Below are positions 1 to 64,000 of a stretch of DNA of 64,000 nucleotides, in pieces (the first letter of the stretch is position 1; every line of letters begins with the position of its first letter). The notes beneath the pieces are model-generated. The model worked only from the letters and a program-made list of their open reading frames with translations. It ran no database searches and had not been told where the DNA came from. Source of the stretch: Siphonodentalium dalli (Eukaryota > Mollusca > Scaphopoda > Gadilida > Siphonodentaliidae); contig CP136068.1 in assembly GCA_032622095.1 (NCBI GenBank), positions 13,993,729 through 14,057,728 on the forward strand. Direction: 5' to 3'. Both the position numbers and the translations under genes were made by a program.

Positions 1-955
1 TTTTTTTGTAAGCTGTACCAAAGGTTCAGCGATTTGCGAAAATGAGGGGACAAATCTGCGGTAGTAGTTGCTCATGCCAATGAAGGAACGAACTTCTTTG
101 ACTGATGTTGGGGGTACAAGCGACCGGATGGCCTTGACCTTGTCGGGGTCAGGTCGGACGCCGTCGGTATCAATTATAAAACCCAAATACTGTGTTTCTT
201 GCTTTAGGAATTGGCACTTTTTTAATTTTAATTTCAGTGTATGTTGGCGCAACTTGTCAAAGACTTTCTGGATATGTTCCAAGTGTAATTCTAGGGACTC
301 GCTGTAGATGAGGACGTCGTCTAAGTAGGCAATGGCGTAATCACCCATCCCACATAACACCTGGGCCATCAGCTGGGAGAAAACCCCTCCAGCGTTCCGG
401 AGCCCAAAAGGCATGGAGTTGAATTCAAAGAGACCTCGGTGGCAAGCGAATGCCGTCTTTTGCTTGTCCTCCTCTGCGACCTGGCACTGCCAATAGCCAC
501 TTTTAAGATCGATAGCGGTGAAGAATTTAGACTTTCCAAGAAGTGCCAAAATATCGTCGATAACCGGAAGTGGGTATGACATAGGCTTGGTTATGGAATT
601 TAATTGTCTGAAGTCGACGCAAAATCGTTTCGTGCCGTCGCGCTTGTCAACCATGACAATCGGCGCCGAATACGGGCTCGAACTCGGCCTGATAATGTCT
701 GCTTCGAGCATATCATTTATGGCAGTGTCAACCAACGGTCGTTTATTCAAAGGGGTGCGATACGGGCGAAGTTTTATCGGAGGGTGGTTTCCCGTGTCAA
801 TATGCATCTTGACTGTGCTCGTCTGCGTCAGCTCAGTGTCCTTGTCGGCAAAAATGTCCGAGTTGGACTTCAACAATTTTATCAGTGTCTCTCGGTATTG
901 CTCGGGGCATGAAACTTCGGTTAAATTTAATCTTTTCTCGACGGTAGCGCGCTGA
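1..955 (-). CDS. pol: Ty3/gypsy-type reverse transcriptase (partial)
   Basis: This is the reverse transcriptase part of an LTR-retrotransposon pol, copying element RNA into DNA inside Gag particles. The minus strand is open from about 955 to the window edge, read by hand without a stop. Visible landmarks in order are VDKRDGTKRFCVDFRQLN, the AIDLKSGYWQ palm motif, MPFGLRNAGGVF, the catalytic YLDDVLIYS (YLDD codons at 313-330), and the RSFIGMSNYYRRFVPSFS segment after the palm. These are hallmarks of the Ty3/gypsy family rather than Copia or BEL. RNase H and integrase would lie beyond position 1. The frame joins the upstream protease/linker only through a frame change near 950-975, so this copy is probably dead although the RT itself looks undamaged. 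Confidence 0.93.
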
Positions 956-1795
956 CCTAGAGTTGTCTACCCTGTTACGGTCGGCGCGCCCGGGAGCATA
1001 GCCATTATCGCGGTAATTACGGGTTGTCGGGGACTGGGAGCTTTGCGACAAAGAGTTGATTTCATGATTGGTTTCGGGGTCACACACGATCGTTTTGCCG
1101 ATCACACTGCCCCGCCGTAGGCGAAACGTTTTGTTAGTGTTATTGACGAGTAATACCGGGACCTTGTTCCTCTTGCCCACCCCAGAAATGGAGCTGCCGA
1201 TTTCCAGACCGGGTTCTGACGCTAGGTAGCCTTTCTCGATTTGGGCCACCTCTACTAATGTCGACTTGCGAAGAGAAGCTAAGTTTTTTTATTTTCCCAT
1301 ACATAAAGTTGATGTTTGGGGCTTTAAGCTAACCTTGCTGGTCAATCTCAGCAGGGAAGCTATGTGCGCGTCCGATTCCAATGGGACGTACACGTCACTG
1401 ACCTTGAGGCATCCCAGGTCATAATATAGTCTGACCCCCCGAGAGGTCAACCAGTCCCTCCCTAAGATCATATTCCGGGTCATCTCATTCACCACATAAA
1501 ATTTGTGGGTTAATTTTAGTTTCGCCATTCTGAAGGTTAGTTCCACGCTACCAAGTACGCCCAGTGACTTCCCATTCACGGAGCTAAGGTTGATGTGTTC
1601 CCTAGTTAGTTTTGGTCGGAACTGTAATGCGTCATAGACCCGTTTGTGAATCAATGATACTTCCGCTCCACTATCCACTAATGAGCGATATTTATTTTTA
1701 CCTATTCTAACTAAACACGAGCTGGGGTTCCCCACAATGTTGATACTAAATTTCCTCTCACATGTGGCCTCAATGAGAGGATTCCTTAGTTTTTT
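956..1795 (-). pseudogene. pol: gypsy-type aspartic protease and protease-RT linker, interrupted
   Basis: This lies in the -1 frame relative to gag and is open from the frameshift heptamer at 1795. The retropepsin active site is visible as SLVDSGAEVSLIHK, followed by the conserved ILGRDWL segment expected near the protease C-terminus. An in-frame TAA at 1289-1291 ends the protease frame. The same frame then reopens into a linker resembling that between protease and RT in gypsy elements (LEIGSSISGVGKRNKVP...). Around 950-975 the coding sense moves to another frame, so a one-base indel is inferred. Protease activity would be Gag-Pol maturation. The stop and the frame change mark this copy as decayed. 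A natural stop is less likely because the linker continues in the same frame. Confidence 0.82.
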
Positions 1796-2868
1796 GCGTA
1801 TGTGGGCGGGGTCATTAGTCGTGGTGGTTCGTTTAATGTCGGATATCTCCGGCTGTGACGCGGTGTATCATGGGATAGGTCACGTGATCGATTCGGCTGA
1901 TCTCGGCGGATTCCCCTAGGTGGCGTTACTGGCGCGTTCCATTGCTTTTGCTTCGAATCTCCGGATTTAGAGGGGCAATTTCTAGCCAAGTGATTACCTT
2001 CGCAAACCCAGCAAGATACGTGCCTTCGGTTTTCGGTCTTAAAGGGGCAGTCGCGAGCGAAATGGTCACCTTGACACGTCCAACATTCGACTGTTCGTGG
2101 TTTAACCACCGCGTCGACATGCACCTGTCTCGGGCGTGATCGGTGTTCTCGGGTCGTGTGGTTATCGCGTGCGCATATATCGCAGGTTGCTCTCGCGTTT
2201 TTGTTTCTGAAACTATCGATTTCCATTGCTTCCGGTTCGTTTTCGTTGTAATTTTCGCGGCCCGTTCGTAGATTGAATACCCGTCGGATCCCCATTTCCC
2301 GCATGGCGATTTCGGCTGCCAATTTTAGTGTCTTCGGCGCATCTCTGATCAACTTCATTTTCAAACTGTCGCTTCTTAAAGCGTCAATATAAAACCCTAC
2401 GAGTTGGCCTTCAACCGCGTTGATCCCACCGGTTTGATCTCGGTATGCCACCGTCGCGATCTCCAAAATTCGTTCGGCAAGCACATGTAAATTTTCGTTT
2501 TGTTTTTGCTTGATTTTTCTTAGCATCGAAAAGGCGAATTGATTGTCATTTATCTCGGCAAATCGACTAGATAATTCGGTTTTTGTGTCTTGCCACGTGG
2601 CGTTAGGATTCGTGGCCAAATATCTTTGTAAAAAATCTGAAACGGGGCCCGTGGCGCTCTGGAATGCCATATAGGGCTTCTTTGCTTCGTTAGCGCCGGT
2701 TAGGATCGCGAATTTTTCTATCAACTTGACCCACCCGTGGTATTTCGTGGGGTCCCCGTCAAATGACGTCACTACCTGTGTCACCGTAGTCATGGCCATT
2801 GCAGCAATTTGAGAATTGATAGACTCTGTTAATGGGGCGAGAACACCAGCTGATTGTTGGGTAGCCAT
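1786..2868 (-). CDS. gag: gypsy-type Gag with zinc knuckles
   Basis: This is the structural Gag protein of the LTR element, which packages the RNA in a cytoplasmic particle. The start chosen is the ATG at 2868 (ATA ATG G context); an upstream TTG is open but a weaker choice. The protein has about 360 residues. The N-terminal two thirds look like a retrotransposon capsid (WVKLIEKFAILTGAN, ATWQDTKTELSSRF, LRKIKQKQNENLHVLAERI). The C-terminus has two zinc knuckles of the C-x2-C-x3-H-x4-C form (CWTCQGDHFARDC and CWVCEGNHLARNC) and a degenerate CDIC...H before them. The knuckle spacing is one residue shorter than the retroviral CX2CX4HX4C. The frame is intact and ends at the frameshift heptamer, so expression of pol would depend on slippage. 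Confidence 0.9.
   Translation of the reverse strand: MATQQSAGVLAPLTESINSQIAAMAMTTVTQVVTSFDGDPTKYHGWVKLIEKFAILTGANEAKKPYMAFQSATGPVSDFLQRYLATNPNATWQDTKTELSSRFAEINDNQFAFSMLRKIKQKQNENLHVLAERILEIATVAYRDQTGGINAVEGQLVGFYIDALRSDSLKMKLIRDAPKTLKLAAEIAMREMGIRRVFNLRTGRENYNENEPEAMEIDSFRNKNARATCDICARDNHTTREHRSRPRQVHVDAVVKPRTVECWTCQGDHFARDCPFKTENRRHVSCWVCEGNHLARNCPSKSGDSKQKQWNAPVTPPRGIRRDQPNRSRDLSHDTPRHSRRYPTLNEPPRLMTPPTYAKN
1789..1795 (-). promoter_or_regulatory. -1 programmed ribosomal frameshift heptamer A AAA AAC
   Basis: On the minus strand the last gag codons are GCA AAA AAC TAA. The heptamer A AAA AAC is therefore exactly in the X XXY YYZ register directly before the gag stop. Slipping back one base enters the frame that leads without a stop into the protease. 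No stimulatory pseudoknot was modelled. Confidence 0.75.
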
Positions 2869-2972
2869 TATGATAATAAACAATTAGACTCACGTTTTGC
2901 GAATTTTCCCACACTGTTTCTGTTCACACTGTTCCTCTTCTGGTTTCACGTTGTGTCTGTGATTAGCGTTCA

Positions 2973-5096: not shown

Positions 5097-6224
5097 TAGG
5101 GTCCTGCGAATTGGATATTTTGATCGAATCGAATATCGAATCGAATTCACGAAATCGAATCGAATATCGAATCGAATCATATATGTGTGTTGCATTCTCG
5201 ATTAGGCATGTTTTGTCAACAATTAGACCATTTGTGAAACGTTCTATGAACTACATGCATGAAGTTCCATCACAACTTATGTGGTGATGAACCATCGTTT
5301 GAGATACTATTAACTTCAATTGATAATTGTCGAGAAAACAAAACAGATCAAAACGTTCATGCGGCCATCACAACAATTAATATATTACCTCTAAAGTTCT
5401 AAACGGATTATCGGAACTAAAATCACGCAGAATTTCTACAGTTTGCATGTATATGCAAAATAGCAAATCGGCATTCGGAAACACCCGTTGTTATAAACTT
5501 GAAGACGAAAAACATCAGTCGCAGGGTAGCCTCTTCGTGTAGTGGTTGATGCTTCTTGAACAGATGATTCCATAGATGGGTCGTTGTCCCAGATGCTTGC
5601 GATTTATACACCATGTTGCATTCATCACATGTGTAAGTCCATGCACTGCCTGCAGCTTTATCGTGTTTAAAATAAGCATGAATGACGGACGACATTTTGT
5701 CCAGTGTAAAAGAAAGCCCCGAAACTGAAAGTCAACTTCAAAAGAGAACAGCGCCAAAATGCACTTTTCGACACCGGGAACACGTGTTGTTTACATTCTC
5801 ACCCATATTACATAGCGCGGAATCTGAGATGGATAGACGGCGGATAAAGCTATCGGTTGCTCAGTCTCATATCTATTATAATTTACTGCGTCGTCGGCCC
5901 ATTGGCAATCTGCGAGCTTTTGCTACCATTTTAAAGCTAGAATTCATACGTATTTAGTTGTCCTATCGTGGGCTTCGTGGCTATTCTTATATTTAATAGC
6001 ATGTGCATGAACATCCGCGATGTACAATAAGAATTACAATGTGCATATATACATAATTTTCTGGGATTAAACGCCACAAAACAGCTAATATCGACGTGTG
6101 TACTTGTCCATAAACAGCCTACTTTTCCGTCAGAGTATATTCGAAATTTCGAGTTGGCAATTTCGACTCGAATTCGAATCGAATTTGACTTTCGAATCGA
6201 ATCTCGAATATTCGCAGGAGCCTA
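5097..6224 (-). mobile_element. hAT DNA transposon remnant
   Basis: The ends are TAGGGTCCTGCGAAT and ATTCGCAGGAGCCTA, with subterminal GAATCGAATATC-type repeats. An exact 8-bp duplication, ACATCAAG, flanks it at 5089-5096 and 6225-6232. TIRs starting YAGGG plus an 8-bp duplication are typical of hAT. At 1.13 kb it is internally deleted, keeping only a BED-finger region. Confidence 0.85.
5423..5695 (-). pseudogene. BED-type zinc finger fragment of hAT transposase
   Basis: About 90 codons are open, starting at an ATG at 5695. Residues 8-52 read as a BED finger, the DNA-binding domain found at the N-terminus of hAT transposases: YFKHDKAAGSAWTYTCDEC, then C-x2-C, a THLWNHL segment and the closing H-x4/5-H (FKKHQPLH). 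The rest of the transposase (RNase-H fold, dimerisation domain) is absent from this copy. It sits inside the hAT termini, which supports the assignment. The tail after residue 60 is probably past a lost splice site or deletion junction. Confidence 0.72.
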
Positions 6225-6370
6225 ACATCAAGTCTCATAACCATAGCCTAATGAGACATTCAGGCCCGTAGGCATAGCCATAGCCTAATGAGACATCCAG
6301 ACTCATAACCATAGCCTATTGAGACATCCAAGCTCATAACCATAGCCTAGTAAGACATCCAGGCTCACAA
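6225..6370. repeat. 31-bp minisatellite, right part
   Basis: This continues the array at 4903-5096 after the hAT insertion and starts with the second copy of the hAT target duplication. Confidence 0.85.
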
Positions 6371-6743
6371 CATAATCACAAATGCATATATTTGGGGGTC
6401 AAATTTGAGAAAAGAGTGCAAATTATCAACTCCGAGCATAAAATTCAATAATTTTCTGTTTGTTGAAATATATATACGCATTTTATTACGTGTATGTAGG
6501 ATATTTAGCAGCGAACCAGTTAACCACTGCAGAATTATAAGGTAACTTTTCAGGATTTAGTCGGAAATATGGCTTGTTGCCATTCATCGGAAAGCTCTCG
6601 GGGAGAACTTTCCGATGAATGGCAACAAGCCATATTTCCGACTAAATCCTGAAAAGTTACCCATAATTCTGCTGTGGTTAAGAAGTCGATTAATTAGGGC
6701 ATTACTGTATGAAATTATCTCAGTTGGTATTTAAGAATACACA

Positions 6744-6850
6744 TCAAGCCTGAGTTTAGTGTGCCTGTCATTTGCAGAATGAGGTCCCAAGAGGGTGAAT
6801 TTAGTGATGCTATCCCGCACAGTGGACTAGAATCAGCTCATTCTGCTTAG
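6744..6850. mobile_element. degenerate MITE, family B
   Basis: The sequence contains GTGTGCCTGTCATTTGCAGA followed by the GGTGAATTTAGTGATGCTA core of the palindromic family B (best copies 14510-14672 and 15195-15452). The right arm is mostly lost. Confidence 0.7.
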
Positions 6851-6976
6851 GCATCATCTTCTCTGGAAAGTTTCTTTATTATCAAATTTCTATTGAAAGT
6901 TCTTCACATAGATTCTATATATTTTTTTAGTTTAGTTTCTTTTCCCCCAAATTGGTAGACAACACATTGCATAATC

Positions 6977-7010
<34 letters not shown>

Positions 7011-10000
7011 TTTATTGATAAAGAAGAATAATAACAAAAGAAAGAGACAAAATACATTCACTCATTCATGCTCTCTGTCCAAAACATGGAAGAGTTTCAC
7101 TCTTCCATGCCCTGGCCTACTTTCTTACCTGTGACATGCAATTAGAAAATATTTAAAGCCACATTATGTGTTAGGACAATTTTAACAGTCATCGTTCAAC
7201 TTAAAAGCAAGACAAATAATCGATACTAGGTACTACCTTGATATATTTTTTGCCTGAAAAGGACTTTCTTTAGCAACAACAATGATAATAAAAAAAAATA
7301 GATTATTTGTTTGTCTTCAGAATAACTTTAAATTTCCCTTATTAACCGGCTAAAGTGGTCGATGGTTTGCAATATTTAAGGTTTGCAAATTCAATGTTCC
7401 AACACTATGTGCAGCTTTAATTGATTTAAGTTCTGAATTTAACATAAACAGTTTAATTAGTAAATTTAACCATATTGAGACCGTATTGTAAATATTGTGA
7501 ATATTGCCTGGTTCGATAGCAAAGGGGAAAAATACACAACGCTCGCTTGAATTGCGTTTGGGACTGTGATTGTAAAATGTTGTGATGTGGTTAAGCATAC
7601 CATGTATATATTGACGTTCTTGTGGACTGTATTACTGGACCAATAAGAATGAGAATGATCATGATCGCTCGGGTACCGGGTAATTGATTTATGCTGTGTG
7701 TTGTTCAGGGTCACTGTTAAGGTAGGGTATACTTTGAGTCTGTAAAAAACAGGGTTTTTAATATAATATTATATTATTTTATTTTTAAGGCATTTCGCAG
7801 TGCCAGCCACTGATTATCGAAGTCGTGATTCATGTTACATTTTGCGTTGTATCTCTCGCATTCATACCTAAATTGAAGATCGCAAAGGAACGGGCGAAGC
7901 GACAGCTGTGTCGGTGTGAATTTGGTCCTATATATATATTGTTTCAACACTAGTAGGAAAAGGTTAATTTTTGAATATCTGTATTCATGATCGATACCTA
8001 TAATGATATTCTTTTTTGTTAGATCAATTGGAAATTGGTTGTTTCTTGTCCATGTTTTAATTTCTAGTATAAAGGTTTGGACGTGGGGACAATCCCAGAA
8101 AATATGAGATATGGTTTCCTGTACATTTTGACAGCGATTGCAAAAATCGTCGAGTCTAAGGTTAGCCATCTTCAGAAATTTATTGGTACTAATAATTCGT
8201 GTGTTTATTCTGAATTGGAGCCACTGTAATTTCGTATCCGTTGTCGTTTTAAAGGGCATGCTCAAATGTTCTTCCCAATTTTCTATCTTCTCGCCTATTT
8301 CGTATTCCCATTTTTGGCATGCATTCGGCATATTTTCCCCATTTGTTAGAGTTTTGTAAAATAATTGCCCGCCTTTTACGTCACGGAGTATCGGAGCGAG
8401 ATTGTTGGGTAGGAATGGACATGGCATACGGATTAAGCGTTGATTAAGAGAACTTGCCAATGAGAAAATCTGACGCTTTATGTTGTTGATTGTTATGAAA
8501 TCGACGCGGATGTTGAAAGTTGCATATAATGTGAATGGGGTATGGAATTTATTATCTGATTGGAATAGATCATTTATATAATATATTCCCGCATCTTTCC
8601 ACGACTTCAAGTTGATCGACGAACCTCCGATTTTTATGTTCGGATTATTCCAGATAGTTGAGGCCATAATATTATCATTTGCATTATTTAGTCGCATAAA
8701 TTTACACCATGCGCGGAAGACGTCTCTCCAGAATGGATTTGCGAACTTGTCTGTTTGCTTTACAATATAATTTGCGTGGTATGTGAGAAGGAGTGGGTCG
8801 TTTAAGAGAGGGGTGGCATTGCATAGTGAAGCCCACTTCGATTGTTTGCAAATCAAACGTCGTATCCAGGTAATTTTCATGGCGGCATCAAAGTTTTCAA
8901 CATTAATCATCTTCAAACCTCCGTACATATGGTCAGCATATAATTGTTTTCTTTTTATTCTATCGCGTTTGGAATTCCAAATGAAATTATATAGACAGGT
9001 ATTTAGGGCTTTCAAAAAGGCTGTATCCGGACTTGGGAGAGCTATAAATAGGTGTGTCAATTTAGGTAAGATTAGTGATTTGATAACTGTTATTCTACCT
9101 AAAGGGGTCAGGAGTCTGTGTTTCCAAATTTTTGTGGTCCTATCAATATCTTCGAGTTTATAACTGTAGTTTATATTCATGTTTGTTAAATTAGTGTCGA
9201 AATGAATGCCTAGAAAATTAAAGGTGTTTACGGTAGACAGGTTTAATTCCGAAAGCACTTGTCGTATTTTATTTTGTGACTCAATCCCTATCCACGCTGC
9301 TTGACATTTTTCAGGATTTATGCGCAGACCCGATACCCGAGCAAATTCGTCCAGTGTTAAGTACGATTCGCGTAGACTATTTTCAGAACCATCAAGTATG
9401 AGCGTCGTGTCGTCCGCATATTGTGTTATTTTGTACTCTGAACCGCCGAGGAAAATCCCTTTAATTGTATTGTTTTGTCGTATCATTAGCCCTAAAACTT
9501 CGGCACAGAGGAGGAAGATATACGGGGATATTGGGTCACCCTGGCGGCAGCCTCTCCCTAACATGAAGCTCTGAGAAATATGACCATTAATCAGAATAGA
9601 TGAACTGGCATTCTCGTACAAAATTGATATCCATTTTTTTACTGCATCTCCAAAATTAAAAAGGTCAAGACATTTTCTTATAAATGACCAGGAAACAGTG
9701 TCAAATGCTTTTTCAAAATCGATAAGGAGTAGTAGGCCAGATTTATTTTCTTGCTTTGTCCTGTGAATTATGTCATATATAAGTCGGGTGTTGTCACCTA
9801 TATACCTACCAGCTAGAAACCCAGTTTGATCGGAGTTGATTATAGATGGGAGCACACGTTTTATTCTGTCAGCTATGCATGACGAGGCTAGTTTGTAGGA
9901 TGTATTCAAGAGGGTGATGGGACGCCAGTTTTTTATCATCTGCCTATTTTTATCCTTTTTTGGTATCAACGTTATAATGCCTTGTTTTTGTGTGATTGAT

Positions 10001-11556
10001 AGCTCCCCCATTGAAAACGATTCATTGAGCGACTCTGTAAAGAAGGGGCCAAGGTCAGACCAAAAAAATTTATAAAATTCATAAGTGTATCCGGATGGCC
10101 CTGGGCTTTTATTATTTTTGGTGGTCTTAAGCGCATCTGTTAATTCTTGCAAGGTTAAAGGTCCTTCAATACTCGAGGCCTGCATGTTGCTTAGTTTAGG
10201 AACGGTTCCATCGTTAAGAAGGGATTTTAAATCGCGATCGTCCATTGACCTATATGAGTATAAATTAAGATAAAAATTTCGGACTTCTTTCATGATATCG
10301 GTTTGTTTTGTGATTGTACTATCATTCGCCACTGTCAGGCTGGTCAGGGCTTTGGAAATGTAATTACGTTTTTCTAAATTTAGAAAATATTTTGTTGGTT
10401 TTTCGCCTTCCTCTATCCATTTTGCACGAGATCTAACCATGGTTCCGCGGATTGTTTCTCTTCGCATTGCTTCCATTTCGACTTCTACTTTTTCTAAGTC
10501 TTCCATTATTTTTTGCTTTTCTTCAGAGCTATATGATGGATGCTCAAGATCAGAAATAATTTTTGCCTTTTTTAATGTTAGATTTTTCTCAATTTTTATT
10601 CGCTCACGTTTTCGATTTGCAGAAAATCGTATAGTAGCGCCTCTGATATCAAGCAACACTGCGTCGAGAAATAGTCGTTTTCCAATGGAGCAATTTTTAA
10701 TGCTTTTTTCCTCATTTGAGGAGTAAGAATATCTTATTTTGTTTTCAGCTATGATTCCTTTTACTAAGTCGACATATTCTCTACAGTATAACAGAGAATT
10801 ATTAAATTTCCAAAAACCTGGACCAGTCTTGATGTCACTGACGTTTAATGGGAGTGAAATAATAGAGTGATCTGTTTTGTATCCGGGTAAAATTGTCGGT
10901 CCTTTTCCCACTAGATTAAGGAGGTCCTCCGAAATTAAAAAGTAATCTAGCCTCGCCATTTTAATTGGGGATTTTCTTCTCCACGTATAGCGTCTTTCTT
11001 GTTTGTTAAATAATCTCCACACGTCAACTAGTTCGAGGCTGCCGGAAAGGTCCGCAACTTCATTTTGGGCGCGGGGGTTGTTTAAATGTTTGTAGTTATA
11101 AGTGTCTAAGTCTTGTTTCTGTACCAGATTCCAGTCTCCACACATGATTATTTGCGTGTTCCCAATCTGGGTAATTAATTTTTTTAGGTTAGAGTAAAAT
11201 GCTGGATTATCTTCATTTGGCCCGTACAAGTTCACCAAACTTAAACGTATATTTTCTATGGTTATGTCGAGTATAATAAAATTTCCACCAGAATCTTTAT
11301 GTGTTTCGTGGATACTATATTCAAAGTTATTTCTAAATAGAATAGCTACACCTCTAGCCTGGGAAGTATAAGATGACATTATCGCTTTGCATCCCCATTC
11401 TGTTTCAATACACCTTTCCATGTGTTTAGTGAAATGTGTGTCTTGCAAGCAATATATCGAGCCCTCCATGTTACGAATGTGGTGAAAGACGTCTCGGCGT
11501 TTCTCGGCTTGGTTAAGTCCACGGCAGTTCAGAGACAAAATTTTAATAGTACTCAT
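6977..11556 (-). mobile_element. L1/Tx1-type LINE (ORF2, 3' UTR and poly(A))
   Basis: The 3' end on the minus strand is a 26-base poly(A) (T run at 6977-7002), followed inwards by a ~770-base 3' UTR (7003-7773) with no coding features and then ORF2. The 5' end is not resolved. Upstream of ORF2 there is no ORF1 within 1.7 kb, but an ORF1-like fragment lies at 13332-13690. Confidence 0.85.
7774..11556 (-). CDS. LINE ORF2: APE endonuclease, reverse transcriptase, CCHC knuckle
   Basis: This is an unbroken 1260-codon ORF2 that would nick target DNA and reverse-transcribe the element RNA at the nick. Residues 1-235 are an APE-type endonuclease: LNCRGL (N10), LQDTH (D39 where L1 usually has E), LYGPN (110-114), GDWN (140-143), ARLDYFL (D204) and the terminal TDH (H230). 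The reverse transcriptase spans roughly 520-770, with LLIDFEKAFD (D613), GCRQGDPISP and the catalytic QYADD (D715, D716). A CCHC knuckle closes the protein at C1139, C1142, H1151 and C1156. The 1260-residue length is full size for the L1/Tx1 clade. The start is an ATG at 11556 just before the endonuclease. An intact frame of this size suggests a young insertion. Confidence 0.95.
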   Translation of the reverse strand: MSTIKILSLNCRGLNQAEKRRDVFHHIRNMEGSIYCLQDTHFTKHMERCIETEWGCKAIMSSYTSQARGVAILFRNNFEYSIHETHKDSGGNFIILDITIENIRLSLVNLYGPNEDNPAFYSNLKKLITQIGNTQIIMCGDWNLVQKQDLDTYNYKHLNNPRAQNEVADLSGSLELVDVWRLFNKQERRYTWRRKSPIKMARLDYFLISEDLLNLVGKGPTILPGYKTDHSIISLPLNVSDIKTGPGFWKFNNSLLYCREYVDLVKGIIAENKIRYSYSSNEEKSIKNCSIGKRLFLDAVLLDIRGATIRFSANRKRERIKIEKNLTLKKAKIISDLEHPSYSSEEKQKIMEDLEKVEVEMEAMRRETIRGTMVRSRAKWIEEGEKPTKYFLNLEKRNYISKALTSLTVANDSTITKQTDIMKEVRNFYLNLYSYRSMDDRDLKSLLNDGTVPKLSNMQASSIEGPLTLQELTDALKTTKNNKSPGPSGYTYEFYKFFWSDLGPFFTESLNESFSMGELSITQKQGIITLIPKKDKNRQMIKNWRPITLLNTSYKLASSCIADRIKRVLPSIINSDQTGFLAGRYIGDNTRLIYDIIHRTKQENKSGLLLLIDFEKAFDTVSWSFIRKCLDLFNFGDAVKKWISILYENASSSILINGHISQSFMLGRGCRQGDPISPYIFLLCAEVLGLMIRQNNTIKGIFLGGSEYKITQYADDTTLILDGSENSLRESYLTLDEFARVSGLRINPEKCQAAWIGIESQNKIRQVLSELNLSTVNTFNFLGIHFDTNLTNMNINYSYKLEDIDRTTKIWKHRLLTPLGRITVIKSLILPKLTHLFIALPSPDTAFLKALNTCLYNFIWNSKRDRIKRKQLYADHMYGGLKMINVENFDAAMKITWIRRLICKQSKWASLCNATPLLNDPLLLTYHANYIVKQTDKFANPFWRDVFRAWCKFMRLNNANDNIMASTIWNNPNIKIGGSSINLKSWKDAGIYYINDLFQSDNKFHTPFTLYATFNIRVDFITINNIKRQIFSLASSLNQRLIRMPCPFLPNNLAPILRDVKGGQLFYKTLTNGENMPNACQKWEYEIGEKIENWEEHLSMPFKTTTDTKLQWLQFRINTRIISTNKFLKMANLRLDDFCNRCQNVQETISHIFWDCPHVQTFILEIKTWTRNNQFPIDLTKKNIIIGIDHEYRYSKINLFLLVLKQYIYRTKFTPTQLSLRPFLCDLQFRYECERYNAKCNMNHDFDNQWLALRNALKIK

Positions 11557-53695: not shown

Positions 53696-53744
53696 CAGCG
53701 GGTATCCGAATAGCATAGGTATCCAGGTGCCGTATCTAGGGAGA

Positions 53745-53850
53745 CCCTATAAAAGCCCAGCTGGGCGGCCCAGCTGGGCGATTCTGAAAAAATAGTATAA
53801 AAGCCCCTACTGGGCGGCCCAGCTGGGCGGTATTAGAGTAAACTCCAAAT
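53745..53850 (+). promoter_or_regulatory. tandem TATAAAAG / CCCAGCTGGG repeat in the LINE 5' UTR
   Basis: Two ~58-bp units each contain TATAAAAGCCC and GGCGGCCCAGCTGGGCG. They lie 125-230 bases upstream of the ORF at 53975, a plausible internal promoter array. Confidence 0.5.
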
Positions 53851-53974
53851 TAAAGGATATTTTGGACGCAATAGTGATTGATTATTACTTTTGGACAACT
53901 AATATATATATTTCTTTGCGAATATCCCGAAAACTTATCATTAGAAAGCTTTAGGAGCGAATATTCTTTTCCCG

Positions 53975-54359
53975 ATGGAACAACTGTGTACTCTCAAATA
54001 TATCATGACACACAAGAAAATATCATATGCACCACATTCCGAAGAAAAGTTGAGACTGAACACAAAACTTGCGATATCACACACAGCGGCATCTATCTTC
54101 ACAGGCGCGAGCATTCTAACAGTACTAGCGGTATTTCTGGCAAGGGCTCTCATGATCCTCGCAGGAGACGTCGAGACTAACCCAGGCCCTTCGAACGAAC
54201 AACACAATCACTCTGTACTTGTATTGAACACACAGAGTATCAGAAATAAATTAGATATACTAGCGGCCGAAACATCAAGTGGCGAGTACGACGTATGCCT
54301 ATTAACCGAATCATGGCTCGATCATTCTATCTCGGACTCAGAAATCCATCTTCCTGGTT
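53975..54359 (+). pseudogene. CR1-like LINE: hydrophobic leader, 2A peptide, endonuclease start
   Basis: From the ATG at 53975, residues 32-63 are hydrophobic (AISHTAASIFTGASILTVLA). They are followed by GDVETNPGP at residues 64-72 (54164-54190), the canonical 2A ribosome-skipping motif, with separation expected between G71 and P72. After it, LVLNTQSIRNKLDIL and CLLTESWL are the opening motifs of a CR1-type APE endonuclease. 2A sequences at this place are known in CR1-group LINEs of several marine invertebrates. The hydrophobic stretch before it could also act as a signal sequence. The frame is cut at 54360 by a retroposed insertion and resumes at 54568. Confidence 0.85.
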
Positions 54360-54555
54360 CTTACCACCCAAGGACTCCTGAATCAACTGTACAGTATCAC
54401 CATATGCACTTAATTTTGTTTTTTGTTTTGTTTTGTTGATCACGTGAATATTATTTTGTAATTTATATTTTGTTGAGTCGGACTTATATAGGTCTTCGGA
54501 CCTGTTGTCTGGCTCTTTGCATTTTTATTTGCAATAAACCTATTTATACAAAAAA
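54360..54555 (+). mobile_element. 5'-truncated retroposed insertion inside the LINE
   Basis: 196 bp flanked by the exact 12-bp duplication ATCTTCCTGGTT (54348-54359, 54556-54567). It ends with CAATAAACC and a short A run. It looks like a LINE 3' UTR or SINE copy inserted by target-primed reverse transcription. Confidence 0.8.
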
Positions 54556-54983: not shown

Positions 54984-54992
54984 GTTGATTTT

Positions 54993-56663
54993 GTCATGAT
55001 GTTATACATTTATCGTATAGAATGGTCATTGGCGAAGACATGGGGACCATAATATACATTCATTGTGGGATAATTTTGTCCGTTATTACGTTTTCTCAAA
55101 TGCCGGTATAATAGGTCACCGCCGAATCAACGCTAATAACGTGATGTGATGTTTCGAATCAATGAATGTTATTGCTATCATAACAACACCCATGCATATA
55201 TATGTACAGGAGATAGTCGAGCTAGGATTCCTCTTATACCCGAGTTGAGAAATATTCACCCTAATCCAAGATGGCGGCCAAAATGGCCACCATAAATACA
55301 AAATCGCCGACAATCGCTGATTTTAACATCAGTGAGCATTATTGTCATGATAAATCCACACCTACTTACTATTGTGAGTTGGGAACACTTAAGCAAAGAA
55401 CTTTCCTTGTACCATTTTCAAATAAAAGTCCCCCAAATCCAAAATAGCGCCCACAATGTCGGACAGATTTAGAAAAATCACCGAAATTCCCTCATATTCA
55501 CACCATTGGGCATTATTGTAGAGACAACTCCACCCATGCTTACAGTTGAGTTGTAAATACTGAGGTGAAGTAATTACCTTACATCTCATGCAAGAAATGT
55601 TTTTCCAAATCGAAGATGGCTGCCAAAATGGCGACCGAAATTTGAAAACACGCCTGCATTCCTTTACTTTCTTACGATGGGCATTATTGTTTCGCGATTT
55701 ATACCCACCATTGCATCTTGATGTGGAATATTGATATGAAGTATTCATTAGGGTTTGGCAATTGATACTCAGTCAAGATCGTGGCCAAACTGGCGGCCAG
55801 AAATTGAAAAGAAGTCGATATTATCACATGCTAATTTCAACTTTTTGTCATAATATCGATCTGTATAGACGAAACGGTACAAAATATAAGCCATCTATTA
55901 GTTCCAATATAAGTCGTAGCCTTTTGGAAGGATGAAAACCCACAATCGCGATGTGATATTTCAAAATCCATTCTTGACTATAAAGGGCGCATACTGGTCG
56001 TAACCGTATATAGGTGCGCCGAATAGTCAAATTATGACTTCCAAGATTCAAAACAACAGTACATTTCTTGCATGGGATGTAAGGTAATTACTTCACTTCA
56101 GTATTCCAACTCAACTTTAAGCATGGGTGGAGTTGTCTCGACAATAATGCCCAATAATGTGACTATGAGGGAATTTCGGTGATTTTTCAAAATCTGTCCG
56201 CCATTGTGGGCGCCATTTTGAATTTGGGCGACTTTTATTTGGATATGGTAATAGGAAAGTTCTTCGCCTAAATGTTCCCAACTCATAATAGTAAGCAGGT
56301 GTGGAGTTGTGATGACAATAATGCTCACTGATGTTAAAATCAGTGATTTTGGGCATTTTTCTATTTCTGGTGGCCATTTTGGCCGCCATCTTGGATTTGG
56401 GTGAATATTCCTCAACTCAGGTATAATAGGAATCCTAGCTCGAGTATCTCCTGCACATATATATGTATGGGTGTTGTTATGATAGCAGTAACATTCATTG
56501 ATTCGAAACATTACATCGCTTTATTAATATCGATTCGACTTTGACCTATTATACCGGCATTTGGGAAAACATTATATCGGACAAAAAGATCCCACAATGA
56601 ATACATATTATGGCCTCATGTGTTCGCCAATGAATCTTCTATGCAATAAATGTATAACATGAC
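54993..56663. mobile_element. 1.7-kb foldback element
   Basis: Left arm 54993-55600 and right arm 56062-56663 are inverted at roughly 85% identity. The left begins TGTCATGATGTTATACATTT and the right ends with its complement. Blocks such as CAAGATGGCGGCCAAAATGG occur in both arms and in the 460-base centre. No coding region is supported. Several blocks (GCATTATTGT...CAACTCCACCC) recur within each arm, so each arm is itself repetitive. Confidence 0.85.
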
Positions 56664-57200
56664 GCCAATATGCCAATATTTTCCCACAGAGACAAACAAA
56701 AGGTGGTGAAATGTCTGAAAAATAGCGTATTTTCACATTTCGGCGGCCATCTTGGATTCTGGTGTCGGATTTTTGGCTAATTTGTAAGGGTTACATATTA
56801 GGATAACGAATCGAGCGGAAAGCAAGACCGCATGTGATATCATCTTTACTATAACGGCGATCAAAGAGACCTGGTGCATATAAAAAAAATGGCCACCATG
56901 ATGGACGCCATCTTGTCTGGAGTCTCTGCGGCCACTTTTTTTTCTTGTTAGCAAGTGAAAACATTTAGAGGAGACATTAAGAAAGACAATTAGTGGGGTG
57001 AAGTTGAGTCCTGGGGGGGGGGGGTGCAGAGGTTGACCAATAACTCCTGGACTAATTGGTTCTTATCAGAGATGCGGTTTTAAATTACTGTTTGCTTTTG
57101 TTTACATAACCCTCCGACTTGTTGTCTGATCCTCGTTTCCATATATTTTGTAGACAAGTTTGTTTTGATTGGGAAGTAAAAATATATTTACACTAATCTA
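56664..57200. other. no gene seen
   Basis: It contains further GGCGGCCATCTTGG and GACGCCATCTTG blocks (56739, 56905) related to the foldback, and a G12 run (57013-57024). Confidence 0.5.
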
Positions 57201-57790: not shown

Positions 57791-58123
57791 TGTTTCCGTA
57801 GTCTACGGCAGCTACTCTTCTTTTATTAATTTTTAAACTAAATACAACACTCTCAAACTATGTACAATACTATAAAACTATAGACAAAGTTCTAAAACTA
57901 TATGCAATGTTCTATAAATATATGCCATACTGAATACTCAACTATAAACAATGCTCTAAAACTATACAATCGTTTGATAAATATTTGAATAAATAAACGA
58001 ATAAATAATGAGTTCAAGAATGAGGGGCACCGTTCCTCTATTTATTACGTATTTAGTGATATCAATAATTCGATTTAATGAGATCATAAAATGATTTAAT
58101 GAGATCATAAAATGATTTGTGAT
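57791..58123. other. no gene seen
   Basis: The sequence is AT-rich with a loose ACTATA(G/T)ACAATGTTCTAAA repeat at 57838-57965. Confidence 0.5.
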
Positions 58124-58241
58124 GAAATTGAGAAAAATAACTAAAGGAGTAGGCAGGCAATCCACCGTCAACAAATGAAAATTCTCCCCAACATAGATGC
58201 GAACTTTCATGTGAAGTCGGTGGAGTCCATGCCAGGAAATC
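58124..58241. repeat. 118-bp repeat, copy 1
   Basis: It runs GAAATTGAGAAAAATAACTA to GGAGTCCATGCCAGGAAATC. It is nearly identical to 59175-59292. A diverged third copy lies at about 58665-58750. Confidence 0.88.
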
Positions 58242-59174
58242 GAATTTGTGATATCATACTTCCATCTAGTATTTATTGATATTAACTAAACAGGTAATAA
58301 ATAGAAGAACGTCGCCCCATACAAGATTACTTGTTTGTCTGATGATGTTTTAAGCATGCCATATATGTGCACAGATAAGAAACACCAGAATAAATAAACG
58401 AATCAATGATAGCACTCGCTTCAATATAAATCAATAGCACGTGTTTGTATAAGAGGTTTAACGGATGACCTTCGCGATGGGTACCGCTGTTAAAATAGTC
58501 AAATCAGAAATAATATTAAAATATAGACATCTTTTTGTTCTAGACATAGATATAGCTATTGTCAAGTTCGTACGCGTTGTTATGTATGTAAGCACAATCA
58601 TACATAACAGGCCAACACTGTTACAGAACCTGGTTCCACCAATGGAAATATCAATAAATACAGATGGAGGCAGAAAATCCACCGCCAACAAATGAAAAAT
58701 CTCCCCAACTTAGTTGCGAAATTTCAAGCGGTGTCGGTGGAGTCCTGCAATCCACATGCAGTTGAAGAGAAAATAATGTTGAAAGGTATTTTAAGATCGA
58801 GAATAAATGTCAGCACTGGTTTCAATGTTCAAGATCACTTTCGGTGGAGTCCTGCAATCCCCGTGCAGCTTCTGAGACATAATAGACATAACTATAAATA
58901 AATAGACATTTATATTTAATGTTGCAAGGCTCGAGCTGTATGGAAAATCACTTCTTTAGTCAACACTTTTAAACTTCTAGGCCGATGTGTCGCTATACGG
59001 AGCTCGCGAGCATACCTGCATTGCCCGAAAATCAATAAGGACGGACGGAAAAATGATTGTTATAGATAAAGGCACTAAGATAATATTTGAAACCAAAATG
59101 ACTGAATTAATTAAGGTTGTGTTCACATGACAATTGAGTGTGAAAATTAACCAAAGAAAGTGGCCTGCGCTAGT

Positions 59175-59292
59175 GAAATTGGGAAAAATAACTAAAGGAG
59201 TAGGCAGGCAATCCACTGTCAACAAATGAAAATTCTCCCCAACATAGATGCGAACTTTCATGTGAAGTCGGTGGAGTCCATGCCAGGAAATC
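59175..59292. repeat. 118-bp repeat, copy 2
   Basis: This copy ends 22 bases from the stop codon of the MULE gene (59315). It may be part of that element's 3' flank. Confidence 0.88.
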
Positions 59293-59314: not shown

Positions 59315-61083
59315 TCAATGTTTTTTTGGACAGAAGGAACAAATCCAAGTTCCCCTGGTAGCGCGTTTGCTGATGTTTTGGCAGTAGATGTGGTACCAAT
59401 TCATACACTCAGAACACTGTGTCATGTTGTCGTTACAATCCGGCATTGCACAACCCTGATGGTTACAATTCTTCTCAATATAAAATGACGTGAATTTCGA
59501 CTTTGTGCGCATGCATAAGAAATTCTTCGGGAAAGGAGTGAAATGTCCCTTCTGGAGGCATGCAAGTAAATGCTGTCGCATTCCATTGGGTCTGAATCTG
59601 CAGTAATCATTCCTACCAAAAGAAGGTTCGTGGCAAAACTCCACAAGGTTTGCCAACGCGAATACTCCACAGTCATCCGAATTTGTTTGCCGTTGGGTGT
59701 GTGGTATCCGCACGCTCAATTTGCCTATTTTCGATCCATGACCATACATGGACCACAATTGAATCATTGTGGATGTTGACAATGGGTCAGATTCGTTTAG
59801 AAGCGAATCAAACAAGTAAACAGAAGTGTCATCATAACTTGGGACATACGTCGAAGCAATCCAATGGCTATGACCGGTGTGGTGCACTTGAGCAACTGGT
59901 TGAGTCGGTCCGAAACCGGTGAAGTGGCTGAAAGGATTATAAAGCCCTGTCGTGCCTTCCATGGTAGGTGCGAAGATTGTATCCTGGAAACCATGTGTCC
60001 AGGGAAACTGATTTGCAAGAATGGACTGAGATTCTCTAACAATCGAATCACACAACCACTTACCGGCTGTGATCGTCTGAACCTTAGTAGGAGTTAGGTT
60101 TTTACCAGTTTTACCATTTTTGCTGATCGCAGAATGTAGCTGGTTTGATGATGGTGGTTTGGGTTTAAGGGGTCGATGCGACCCAGTTGACAGAACAGGG
60201 AGAACGAGATTTTTGTCAGGCGAAGACTGAACAGGCGAAGAGGGAGGGGAAGGTGATAGCATGAAATCGATCGATGCAGTCGAGTCAAAAATAAGATGTT
60301 TCGAAGACGAAATAGGTGGTACAATGACTGAGGAATGTTCCTGGAATTCTATCGTGGATTTTGGCGATGCCACGGGTGATGAGTCCGAAGGAGACAAACG
60401 TAGAGCAAGTGGTGAGGACATATCATCAATGCGCGGTGACTCAACAGGGCGGGGTGACGCCGACGCAGAATGTGAAGGCGATGCGACCTGTGTATTACAA
60501 TCAATTGTCGGTGTCATCACCGATGGCTGAGAGATTGGAGAACATGATATCCTGTTTGCAGATGGGATTTTCGAGCTTGATTTGGGACGAACTGGTGTAG
60601 AAGACGTCGTGGAACACGGTGACAAAGCGGTAGGGGATATAGCTTGAGAAGCAGCTGCAGAATCAGGTGCGGGTGTGACTAGACAATCATAGTCATTTTT
60701 TCTAGGCCTTTTCCTGCCAGATTTTTTGTCAGCCCGTGAGCGTCCACGTTTTCTGAGGACGGTCAAATTGACGGGTCTAGATTCGATATTATCATCTGTT
60801 TCCATCCCTATGAACATACGGGAAGCGATGATGTGATAACAAGTTGATGTGGAAGGACATCCACATTTCTCTTTGGGGAAAAGCTGTACGCAGTAGTTGT
60901 CTCCCCTGTTACCGACAACGCAGAAAACTCGTTGATCGGGAACAAATGAGATTCGTTTGGACCGAATGACTTCAATTGCAAGCGACTTCTGACTGGTGAA
61001 TCTCGGTTGTTCTGAGCTAATCTCGGGCTCAGTTTCAGTGTCAAGGACGTCACTTGTGGCATTTTCCACCAAGAGCCGCCCCC
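59315..61083 (-). CDS. MULE protein, C-terminal half: SWIM finger, Ulp1-type protease, PHD finger
   Basis: 585 codons are open in this frame, counted from 61072; the coding sense joins the transposase frame near 61083. A SWIM zinc finger lies at residues 61-80 (CVQLFPKEKCGCPSTSTCYH: C70, C72, C78, H80), as normally follows a MULE transposase. Residues ~100-330 are a Ser/Pro-rich, disordered linker with a basic nuclear-type patch (RKRGRSRADKKSGRKRPRK). Residues ~335-500 are a C48/Ulp1-like cysteine protease with HSHW (H403), YLFDSL (D422), Q462 six residues before the cysteine, and DDCGVF (C468), so the full catalytic set is present. A PHD-type finger closes the protein (C541, C546, C553, C556, H561, C564, C578, C581). 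The role of the protease and PHD is inferred: deSUMOylation or proteolysis, and chromatin reading. Confidence 0.85.
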
Positions 61084-62168
61084 TCTGGTATCATTGACTA
61101 TGTCTTGCCAATGAGTGATCCCTTGTGGTATTATGCATTCGCCGGACTGATATTTGGCGAACGCATATATTTCTCTGAGGACCATATTTCCGACTCCGAG
61201 TCGGCCCCTCTGATACTCATAAAAATAAAATTTCATTAAGAAGTACAGAGATATGACAATAGCATCAATAGGGACTTCTTTCCAGCCCTGTAACTGCTTT
61301 AGAATGACATTAAAAGACTCTGATTGATTATTTGTTAACCCAGAAAGTGGATTATAGAGTTTGTGTGGGCGGAGCAACCAGGCACCAGCGCCTTTTTTTA
61401 TGTCGCTCTTGAGACATTTATCGAAGTAGGCTTTCACAGCCTCTGTCCAATTCGCGGTCAGTTGTTCGTACTTATCGTCGAATTCAGCCTCGGATGAAGC
61501 CTTCATCATGGCGACCACGTCCTGTTTATAAGCGGCTATTTCATCCAAGCCAGCTTTTAGTTCCGCGTGGAGATAACGATGCATATCTCTTTTGATGTGG
61601 TTCCAACAAAAGAACACAGGCATTTGTGGGAACACGGCATGAACAGCATTTGAGAAGCTGTCTTCCCTATCGAAGACGATGGGAATATTAGATTGGTATT
61701 TGAAAATCTTTGGAAATTTGTCTTTAACCATTTCAAATAGCCGAGTGTGTGCTTTTTGATATTTGCGCTCATGTATCAAGAACGCTAAAGGAAAAACAGG
61801 TGAGCCCTCGAATAGAATGTTTCTTATTATTAACGAGGAGACATAGAAGTCACCTACATTGAAGGTAGTGTCGTAGCCGAGCACGAAACGGTGCGATTCC
61901 TGATCAATTTCCAACAAATCATTGACCTCATGTGACCATTCAGGATAGTGGACGATAACGTACAAATCGTTATCGAGGTAGCACATTTCAGGAATATGCT
62001 TTAATTGATGAGCCATTTGCAAAAGATCCCTAATTGGGTCTTTGTTGCGTTTTTCTGACACTGACTTGGCCTTAATATTTGCCTTGTATTTCTTGGGTTT
62101 AAGACCCCATTGTGATCTGGTTGTTGTGGTACTGTAACTAACTGTTGGTAAATCGTTTGAGGATTCCT
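61084..62168 (-). CDS. MULE DDE transposase core
   Basis: This is the transposase that would cut and join element ends. Numbered from the open frame starting at 62061, the motifs are GYDTTFNVGDFYVS (D64), PVFPLAFLIHERK, IVFDREDSF (D131), FCWNHIKRD (the C-x2-H of MULEs, 152-155) and LTNNQSESFN (E248). All three acidic residues are present with Mutator-type spacing. The frame runs open past the expected junction into nonsense residues and stops at 60808. The real continuation (LLVENATSD) is one base out of frame at a G5 run near 61082, so a one-base loss is inferred. Upstream, codons reading SQWGLKPKKYKANIKAKS extend the frame to about 62168, where another one-base loss separates it from the N-terminal domain. 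Confidence 0.85.
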
Positions 62169-62615
62169 TTCAGATGACGTTACGGTGTTTCTGATCGAAG
62201 CCAAAGTAGAAGGGGCAGTTCTTTTGGAGACATAGAAGTCACCTACATTGAAGGTAGTGTCGTAGCCGAGCACGAAACGGTGCGATTCCTGATCAATTTC
62301 CAACAAATCATTGACCTCATGTGACCATTCAGGATAGTGGACGATAACGTACAAATCGTTATCGAGGTAGCACATTTCAGGAATATGCTTTAATTGATGA
62401 GCCATTTGCAAAAGATCCCTAATTGGGTCTTTGTTGCGTTTTTCTGACACTGACTTGGCCTTAATATTTGCCTTGTATTTCTTGGGTTTAAGACCCCATT
62501 GTGATCTGGTTGTTGTGGTACTGTAACTAACTGTTGGTAAATCGTTTGAGGATTCCTTTCAGATGACGTTACGGTGTTTCTGATCGAAGCCAAAGTAGAA
62601 GGGGCAGTTCTTTTG
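61838..62615. repeat. exact 389-bp tandem duplication within the MULE gene
   Basis: 61838-62226 and 62227-62615 appear identical. The unit is not a multiple of three. It repeats coding sequence from the N-terminal linker through the first catalytic Asp region. Both copies carry the same frame change at TCCTTTCAG (62164-62172 and 62553-62561). Confidence 0.93.
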
Positions 62616-63046
62616 AATGTTGATCGGCTGTCTTTCGAATTACCATGTGGAATATCTGTTGATAGCGAATCGTCGCCAAGGTAATGGATGAGGGTATCAG
62701 AGTTATGTTTGTCGAACAGTGTGTATGCTGTACGAATAAAAGAATTCGAGCCCTTTCTATCACCAATGCCTTGCTTCAAAGTGAAGCGTGATTTTGTTAT
62801 GACAGGTGAGTTTTTCGGGTGGTTGTTGGGTCCTCTATTCACCCACAGATGTTGATCGGCCTTCCAATCATCTTTTTTGAGTGGGTCTTCATTTCTATAC
62901 AGATATATGTCACCTCCCTTTGGTTTTACAGGTGGTATATCACATATTTTGACCCGATCGGGTTCTGACAACAGTTCTAAGGCATATCCGTTGGAAAGTA
63001 CTTTATCCCATTTATCAATAAGTGGAGATGATTCGGCTGACGCCAT
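62562..63046 (-). CDS. MULE protein, N-terminal half with CG-1-like DNA-binding domain
   Basis: An ATG at 63046 opens about 160 codons. Residues ~40-125 resemble the CG-1 domain of CAMTA transcription activators: PVKPKGGDIYLYRN matches the PxNGSxxLY start, DDWKADQHLWVNRG the RKDGYxW strand, and FIRTAYTLFD plus DTLIHYLGD the terminal FHRRxYWLL...LVHYL. This is my alignment by eye, not a profile match. The domain would recognise the element ends. A Ser/Thr-rich linker follows (KDSRSTFKRTAPSTLASIRN). A one-base frame change at the AAA run near 62557 then leads into TTTTRSQWGLKPKKY. The open frame itself continues to 62390 in the wrong register. Confidence 0.6.
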
Positions 63047-63291
63047 GCTAATATGACTATAATTATTGCATTACTCACGAGAACGGATGAATCTGAATGG
63101 AGTCGTCTTGGTTATGAATTGTTGTTGAGTCGTTTCCGGCCGAAGGCCGGGTAGGGTGGTCGGACTGCAGTGTGCAAGTCCCTTCACCCTTACTTGATTT
63201 TTCGATGGGGATCGATCTTGTGGCTGTCGTGGTTACTGGGGTTGGAGGCAAAGCGGCGGAAGCGTGGTGGAGTCGTCAGGTGCTGTCGAGG
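63047..63291 (-). other. 3' part of the neighbouring LINE and upstream region of the MULE gene
   Basis: GC-rich sequence between 63100 and 63291 probably continues the LINE below its stop. The MULE terminus is not identified here. A GTGAGT on the minus strand (63076-63071) and TATTAG just before the MULE ATG could be a short 5' intron, but this is weak. Confidence 0.35.
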
Positions 63292-64000
63292 TTATATGGG
63301 TCTGTCTGTTGCGTCTAGTTGTAGGATGGACTTTGTCTTTTTCGTGGTGAGTAGTTGATTTCTAACTTGTAGTTCTAGGAGGAGTGGGCTGTTGTCTAGT
63401 CGGGATAGTGTCATGTTTCTGAGATCCATCAGTCTTTGCTTGATTGTAGGTATGTTCGCTGCGTCGTGGAGTGCGTTGATCGGTGTCCATGGTGGTTGGC
63501 GGAGCGCGATGCGGAGTGCTTGGTTTTGGACTTTCTGTAGTTTTTCAATGTATGTCTTTGGGGCTGCTGTGAGGACGGCAGCACCGTACTCCATGACTGG
63601 TCGGACGTAGATTTGGTAGAGGTTGATGAGGGTTTGGCTGTTGGTTCCCCAGTCTGTTCCCAGGAGGCATCGTAGTAGATTTGTTCTTTTTCGGGCTTTA
63701 TCGGCTATCTTGTTGATGTGAGGGATGAAGGTCATTTGCTGGTCTAGTGTTATTCCTAGTAGGATCGCTTGGTTGGATGGTCTCGTTGTCTATCTTGATG
63801 TCGATGGATTGTGTTGTTTTTCTTCTGTGGAATATGATGAGTTGGGTCTTTTTGGCGTTGAGTTTAATTCTCCATTTTGAGCACCATGTTGATAGGTCGT
63901 CGAGTGTCTTTTGTAGTCTTTTCTGTAGGATTCGAGGGTTTGTATGAGTCGTCCAGAGTCCTAGGTCGTCGGCGAACTGTGATATTTCAACGTTGTTTCT
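63292..64000 (-). pseudogene. Jockey-like LINE ORF2: end of RT and C-terminal region
   Basis: The window opens within the RT palm: VEISQFADDLGLW (FADD catalytic motif, about 63960-63990) and WCSKWRIKLNAKKTQLIIF follow the expected order. A frame change at about 63770 leads into an open frame (start 63735) reading RTNLLRCLLGTDWGTNSQTL, YVRPVMEYGAAVLTAAPK and KVQNQALRIALRQPPWTPI, the conserved post-RT segment of Jockey-group LINEs. It ends at a stop at 63292. It is related to, but clearly distinct from, the deleted copy at 42255-43040. The endonuclease would lie beyond 64000. Confidence 0.82.

Follow-up and report, generated by a model that had tools for sequence, protein, structure and literature searches.

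The DNA analysed here, 64,000 nucleotides from Siphonodentalium dalli (GCA_032622095.1, contig CP136068.1, 13,993,729-14,057,728 of the forward strand; this whole stretch is called the window below), holds a copy of a Mutator-like element (MULE) that encodes on its minus strand, in this order, a CG-1 domain, a MULE DDE core, a SWIM finger, a linker, a C48 (Ulp1-type) protease and a PHD finger. The modules are spread over three open reading frames (ORFs) in three frames. The N-terminal part is encoded by the ORF at 62390-63046, the last residues of which leave the transposase frame, and its CG-1 domain (62642-62938, residues 37-135) is found both by Pfam and by a family hidden Markov model (HMM). 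The DDE core (61165-62055, again found by Pfam and family HMM) lies in the ORF at 60808-62061 with D64, D131, E248 and, between the second D and the E, a C2H motif of the CxxH type starting at C152. The third ORF, 59315-61072, contains the SWIM finger with a flanking stretch (60686-60994, residues 27-129, by family HMM, with the motif running from C70), a Ser/Pro-rich linker defined as the gap separating family HMM matches (60032-60685), the cysteine protease (59525-60031, with H403, D422, Q462 and C468) and a TAF3-like PHD finger (59330-59461, by family HMM and by its match to TAF3). An earlier note, made from the letters of this DNA, had read these modules as one transposon protein, and every DDE and protease residue that it named lies where it was placed.

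Profile searches, which the earlier note had offered as a check, bear this reading out in the window for some modules and leave others short. The Pfam CG-1 (PF03859; 25.5 bits, cut-off 23.5) and MULE (32.8 bits, cut-off 27.6) models pass, whereas PHD is at or just under its cut-off of 24 (22.2 bits, 24.0 after trimming), C48 (PF02902) is just below its threshold of 20.7 (17.4 bits, 19.3 after trimming), and Pfam SWIM finds no match in the window ORFs, so that the SWIM assignment is made from the motif at C70 and from relatives. The family HMMs give 4e-16 for PHD and 7e-41 for SWIM, the latter with a model partly seeded from the same stretch. A protein search with the C-terminal ORF returned seven proteins, including ones from Mytilus edulis and Pinctada imbricata and the intact 950-aa chain P0005, which exceeds the Pfam cut-offs for C48 (46.3 bits, the highest among the relatives scored in that scan), PHD (34.4), MULE (32.8) and CG-1 (26.5). 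The catalytic residues are strongly conserved: in a DDE alignment of 55 rows the first D, the C, the H and the E are invariant and the second D is present in at least 90%, and in the ungapped rows of a 35-row C48 alignment, which takes in near-identical copies from the host genome, H is found in 35/35, D in 34/34, Q in 34/34 and C in 33/33. The Ulp1 fold and the His-Asp-Gln-Cys set of the C48 domain fit clan CE.

The fusion itself is best seen in sister copies. In the host genome (2.23 Gb in 9 contigs) the DDE query matches at least 110 places, and among 20 regions chosen from these matches, eight carry all five modules in a single open frame (L013, L014, L017, L018, L019, L020, L021 and L022), with only part of CG-1 inside that frame in L017 and L020. 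An in-frame ATG precedes CG-1 in L018, L019, L021 and L022. L013 and L014, whose frame is open upstream of CG-1 but lacks an ATG there, suggest a short first exon. The remaining 12 chosen loci are broken, cut or split across frames. Two further loci (L034 and L035, on C8) with CG-1 above the Pfam cut-off and DDE are split over several frames or exons.

The combination recurs among database proteins. A profile search returned 53 rows which, with the earlier matches, make 58 different proteins; the organisms named among the matches are two bivalves, two mites and a caecilian. Family HMMs detect CG-1 in 47 of the 58, DDE in 56, SWIM in 50, C48 in 23, PHD in 17 and all five in 11, and in all 11 five-module proteins the protease sits between the linker and PHD. 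With Pfam only, at E<=0.01 over 55 proteins, the counts are MULE 51, CG-1 16, PHD 14, C48 13 and SWIM 6, and at E<=1 Pfam CG-1 is found in 12 of 15 segments. Many other homologues are fragments, or end shortly past a conserved PAPDA-type motif downstream of SWIM, at what may be exon ends. One caecilian protein, P0055, is named as a mitochondrial tyrosine-tRNA ligase and contains CG-1 and DDE modules; it is probably a mis-annotation or a chimera. The combination of five modules in one MULE transposase is thus real and conserved, and the question raised by the earlier note, whether other copies would place these domains on separate genes, came out in favour of fusion.

The window copy is a decayed member of this family. 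It contains an exact 389-bp tandem duplication (61837-62614), the two copies of which, 61837-62225 and 62226-62614, are letter-identical, and with the intact sister protein L013 as a guide, its frame shifts fall near the duplicated stretch and then near 61080. Given the three frames and the duplication, it cannot make one protein as assembled. The duplication is not present in the sister copies L023 and L024, which count as one witness because they are 99.85% alike. These two loci (on C2, about 430 kb apart) share 9.2-kb stretches at that level and have two insertions in common; one of them, at oriented positions 5397-7637 of L023, carries at its edges 32-bp inverted repeats together with an overlap of 9 bp and seems to be another element with terminal inverted repeats (TIRs) inside the MULE copy. 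Over 61909-57119, L027 and the window share 97.6% identity.

Collecting copies from the same genome, as the earlier note had advised, yielded the termini: TIRs of MULE type flanked by target site duplications (TSDs) of about 9 bp occur in the sister copies L009, L026 and L025, and for the window copy one end was located. L009 has 1.6-kb TIRs (oriented 472-2086 and 5567-7164, 96% alike) with an array of 193-bp tandem units and the 9-bp TSD tctttgtgc, and has lost the C-terminal half of its coding part; the terminus of the subfamily to which it belongs, A, is GAGAGTGGCTAAAATGC. The TIRs of L026 are about 250 bp and 85% alike, with the 9-bp TSD gaaaatatg and a coding part in two frames. L025, 4.4 kb long, has TIRs of 287 bp (99.65% alike) and a TSD of 8-9 bp; one of its ORFs encodes CG-1 and another, of 873 aa, encodes DDE-SWIM-C48-PHD. 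In the window, a 224-bp segment at 53741-53964 (GAGACCCTATAAAAGC...) matches in inverted orientation (97.8-98.7%) sequence lying 5' of the coding part in L023/L024 and L027; because these matches end no more than one base apart and the flanks are unlike, I place the 3' terminus near 53741. A 5' repeat did not turn up in the window or in the 3 kb that follow it, and from these alignments the element would span 53741 to beyond base 64000, larger than 59315-63046. Just inside the end of subfamily A and of the window element (53741) there is a doubled palindrome-like motif, a candidate CG-1 binding site.

The 3' non-coding part of the element includes three 119-bp repeat units (58123-59292), 70-98% alike at a spacing of about 520 bp, which also occur in L027. 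At the other side, the 3' end of a long interspersed nuclear element (LINE; 63122-64000, minus strand) abuts or interrupts the 5' region, and the match to L023/L024 stops at 63122; reverse-transcriptase-type ORFs were recognized there by eye and a similar 70-bp tail occurs in L026, and the ORF at 63292-63735 gave no Pfam match. Within the inferred 3' part of the MULE, an ORF at 53975-54439 combines a 2A-like NPGP motif with an endonuclease-like LINE start (by eye), and a 613-bp inverted pair (54988-55600 and 56061-56671, 88% alike) is probably a separate foldback insertion. Elsewhere in the window (1-2883 and 7774-11556), inspection by eye shows frames of Ty3-type retroelements and a LINE ORF of 1260 aa.

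How the modules have been kept was compared in five between-subfamily pairs, in which synonymous sites are saturated (pS 0.76-0.81 overall). The non-synonymous difference is 0.26-0.31 for DDE, 0.28-0.33 for C48, 0.19-0.31 for SWIM, 0.23-0.39 for PHD, 0.37-0.48 for CG-1 and 0.49-0.52 for the linker. Between subfamilies C48 therefore changes about as slowly as the DDE core, which argues that the protease belongs to the transposition machine and is not a passing capture. The faster change of CG-1 is as expected for a domain that tracks the termini of its own subfamily, and the TIR ends are indeed unlike between subfamilies.

The CG-1 model lies near the GCM, NAC and WRKY domains, with middling scores. 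The sequence profile of C48, compared with solved structures, finds SENP8 (a NEDD8 protease) best, then Ulp1 and OtDUB, and among structural matches the SUMO, NEDD8 and ubiquitin proteases score close together, with viral processing proteases also present. The SUMO-type protease of the earlier note is upheld in its fold and catalytic residues, and its tag may be SUMO, NEDD8 or ubiquitin. The PHD finger is closest to TAF3 (E 8.9e-9 with a profile), and its positions W559 and M550 in the window, which I take to correspond to the H3K4me3-cage residues of TAF3, are W in 21 and M in 23 of 27 rows, near-identical host copies included. The suggestion that the element carries a chromatin reader gains strength from this signature, which would make the finger a predicted H3K4me3 reader.

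Parts of this architecture have been described before. According to the available portion of Bao, Kapitonov and Jurka (2010; PMC2836005), Mutator transposons with Ulp1 exist in hydra, lancelet and plants, a figure legend describes an alignment of Ulp1 and PHD domains from transposases of the Mutator and Ginger1 kinds, and a role via ubiquitin/SUMO pathways is suggested; the animal Mutators likewise carry Ulp1, aligned with PHD, and CG-1 is not mentioned in that portion. Ginger1 (Ginger1-9_HM) resembles the present family in having C-terminal Ulp1 and PHD on the transposase but differs, in the same excerpts, by a Gypsy-integrase-like core and 4-bp TSDs, compared with a MULE core and TSDs of 8-9 or 9 bp here. 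Membership in Ginger1 was rejected on the MULE core found by Pfam and on the TSDs of the sister copies. As a separate observation, the C48 profile built on the MULEs finds a C48 domain, at 2e-22 to 1.3e-20, in six stretches of the host genome (L041, L042, L043, L045, L047 and L049), and in L045 (535-1869) and L041 (492-1869) an integrase C-terminal domain stands beside it (Pfam SH3_Tf2-1, above cut-off in L041 only); these look Ginger1-like, so that two unlike transposase types would have one kind of protease. KDZ/Zisupton, another transposase superfamily, also combines a DDE core with SWIM and Ulp1-like parts.

Plant KIU/VANDAL MULEs also join MULE and Ulp1 domains, but there Ulp1 is on a VANC-type gene, as far as the excerpted text goes (PMC13317346), and here on the transposase. 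PMC6446971, in the text at hand, lists MULE groups in which SWIM, FLYWCH and other fingers are found, besides a hydra group that has an ovarian tumour gene; Rehavkus, compared by its description only, is MULE-like with a PHD finger and no Ulp1 or CG-1 listed, and the words protease and CG-1 are absent from the text of that paper. Mosquito MULEs with FLYWCH and SWIM are described in the part seen of PMC5225508, and in PMC3169594 'CG-1' is frequent and never appears as 'CG-1 domain'. A limited search of openly licensed papers, through titles and abstract openings and with Repbase outside its scope, found no report of a CG-1 transposase. The earlier note knew of no described five-module element, and none was found here either, but the pairing of Ulp1 with PHD in animal Mutators was already in print; what is new here, as far as could be checked, is the CG-1 end together with the H3K4me3-reader signature, the C48-PHD half having been known.

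What, then, is this locus? On balance I think it is probably a dead copy belonging to an autonomous family of Mutator-like DNA transposons whose transposase comes in one piece. In this reading CG-1 would bind the inverted repeats of the transposon, the DDE core and SWIM would cut and join DNA, PHD would anchor the complex to the H3K4me3-marked chromatin of active promoters, and C48 would help transposition by stripping a ubiquitin-like tag (SUMO, NEDD8 or ubiquitin) from its substrates, which may be proteins located at the donor or target site, factors of silencing or repair, or the transposase itself. Several observations weigh against this picture: the window copy is broken, with its three frames and its duplication; C48 was not detected in 35 of the 58 homologues; the E-values of the family HMMs are not independent, because the models were iterated on the same proteins; the cage tryptophan is missing in 6 of the 27 PHD rows; and among five near-identical pairs overall dN/dS is 0.54-1.19, on few changes. 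The last implies that recent copies show little selection, as expected if copies decay after insertion. As for the homologues without C48, many are fragments or stop a short way past SWIM, so that they could be first exons; alternatively, the C48-PHD half could be dispensable. The broken window copy would also suit a chance patchwork of unrelated neighbouring fragments, or an assembly artefact, yet the same order recurs in one frame at eight of the 20 chosen loci and in 11 of the 58 proteins; the sister copies and database proteins therefore already refute this explanation, which I regard as having practically no chance of being right.

The rivals that deserve thought concern the protease. The C48-PHD half might instead be a counter-defence coded by the transposon, through which repressors at the element lose their SUMO. 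Such a counter-silencing role, proposed in the earlier note, may be argued by analogy from the Ulp1-bearing VANC genes of plant VANDALs, which are anti-silencing and tied to hypomethylation of related copies (PMC13317346, in the part available), and the C48 catalytic residues are conserved, but this C48 is SENP8-like by sequence and the finger would read H3K4me3. That mark belongs to active, not silent, chromatin, and I consider the counter-silencing explanation rather improbable. Slightly less probable still is a C48 directed at the transposase itself, either to trim the large fusion or to keep the transposase free of SUMO or ubiquitin, and not at host silencing proteins: the protease lies in cis in every five-module protein (11/11) and clan CE includes the viral processing proteases seen among the structural matches, but the linker is without conserved columns in a nine-row alignment, and the closest relatives with a solved structure are enzymes that cleave ubiquitin-like tags.

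If the favoured reading, that of an autonomous Mutator-like family with a one-piece transposase, is right, one transposase would recognize DNA ends, carry out catalysis, read chromatin and remove tags. An H3K4me3-reading PHD finger on a transposase, if true, would be a direct target-site mechanism, for which RAG2 offers a parallel. More tentatively, and with less confidence than the reading itself, the CG-1 domain of CAMTA factors could be a branch of the GCM/NAC/WRKY domains that shares its origin with the domain by which these Mutator transposases would bind their termini and was taken from a transposon, like other factors of transposon origin, the transposase having in addition its own H3K4me3 reader and ubiquitin-like protease, so that target choice and local chromatin editing would be joined in one enzyme. 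The presence of CG-1 in a transposase is a possible transposon link for CAMTA factors, and the conservation of C48 bears on the question of why Ulp1 domains are found time and again in unrelated transposon superfamilies.
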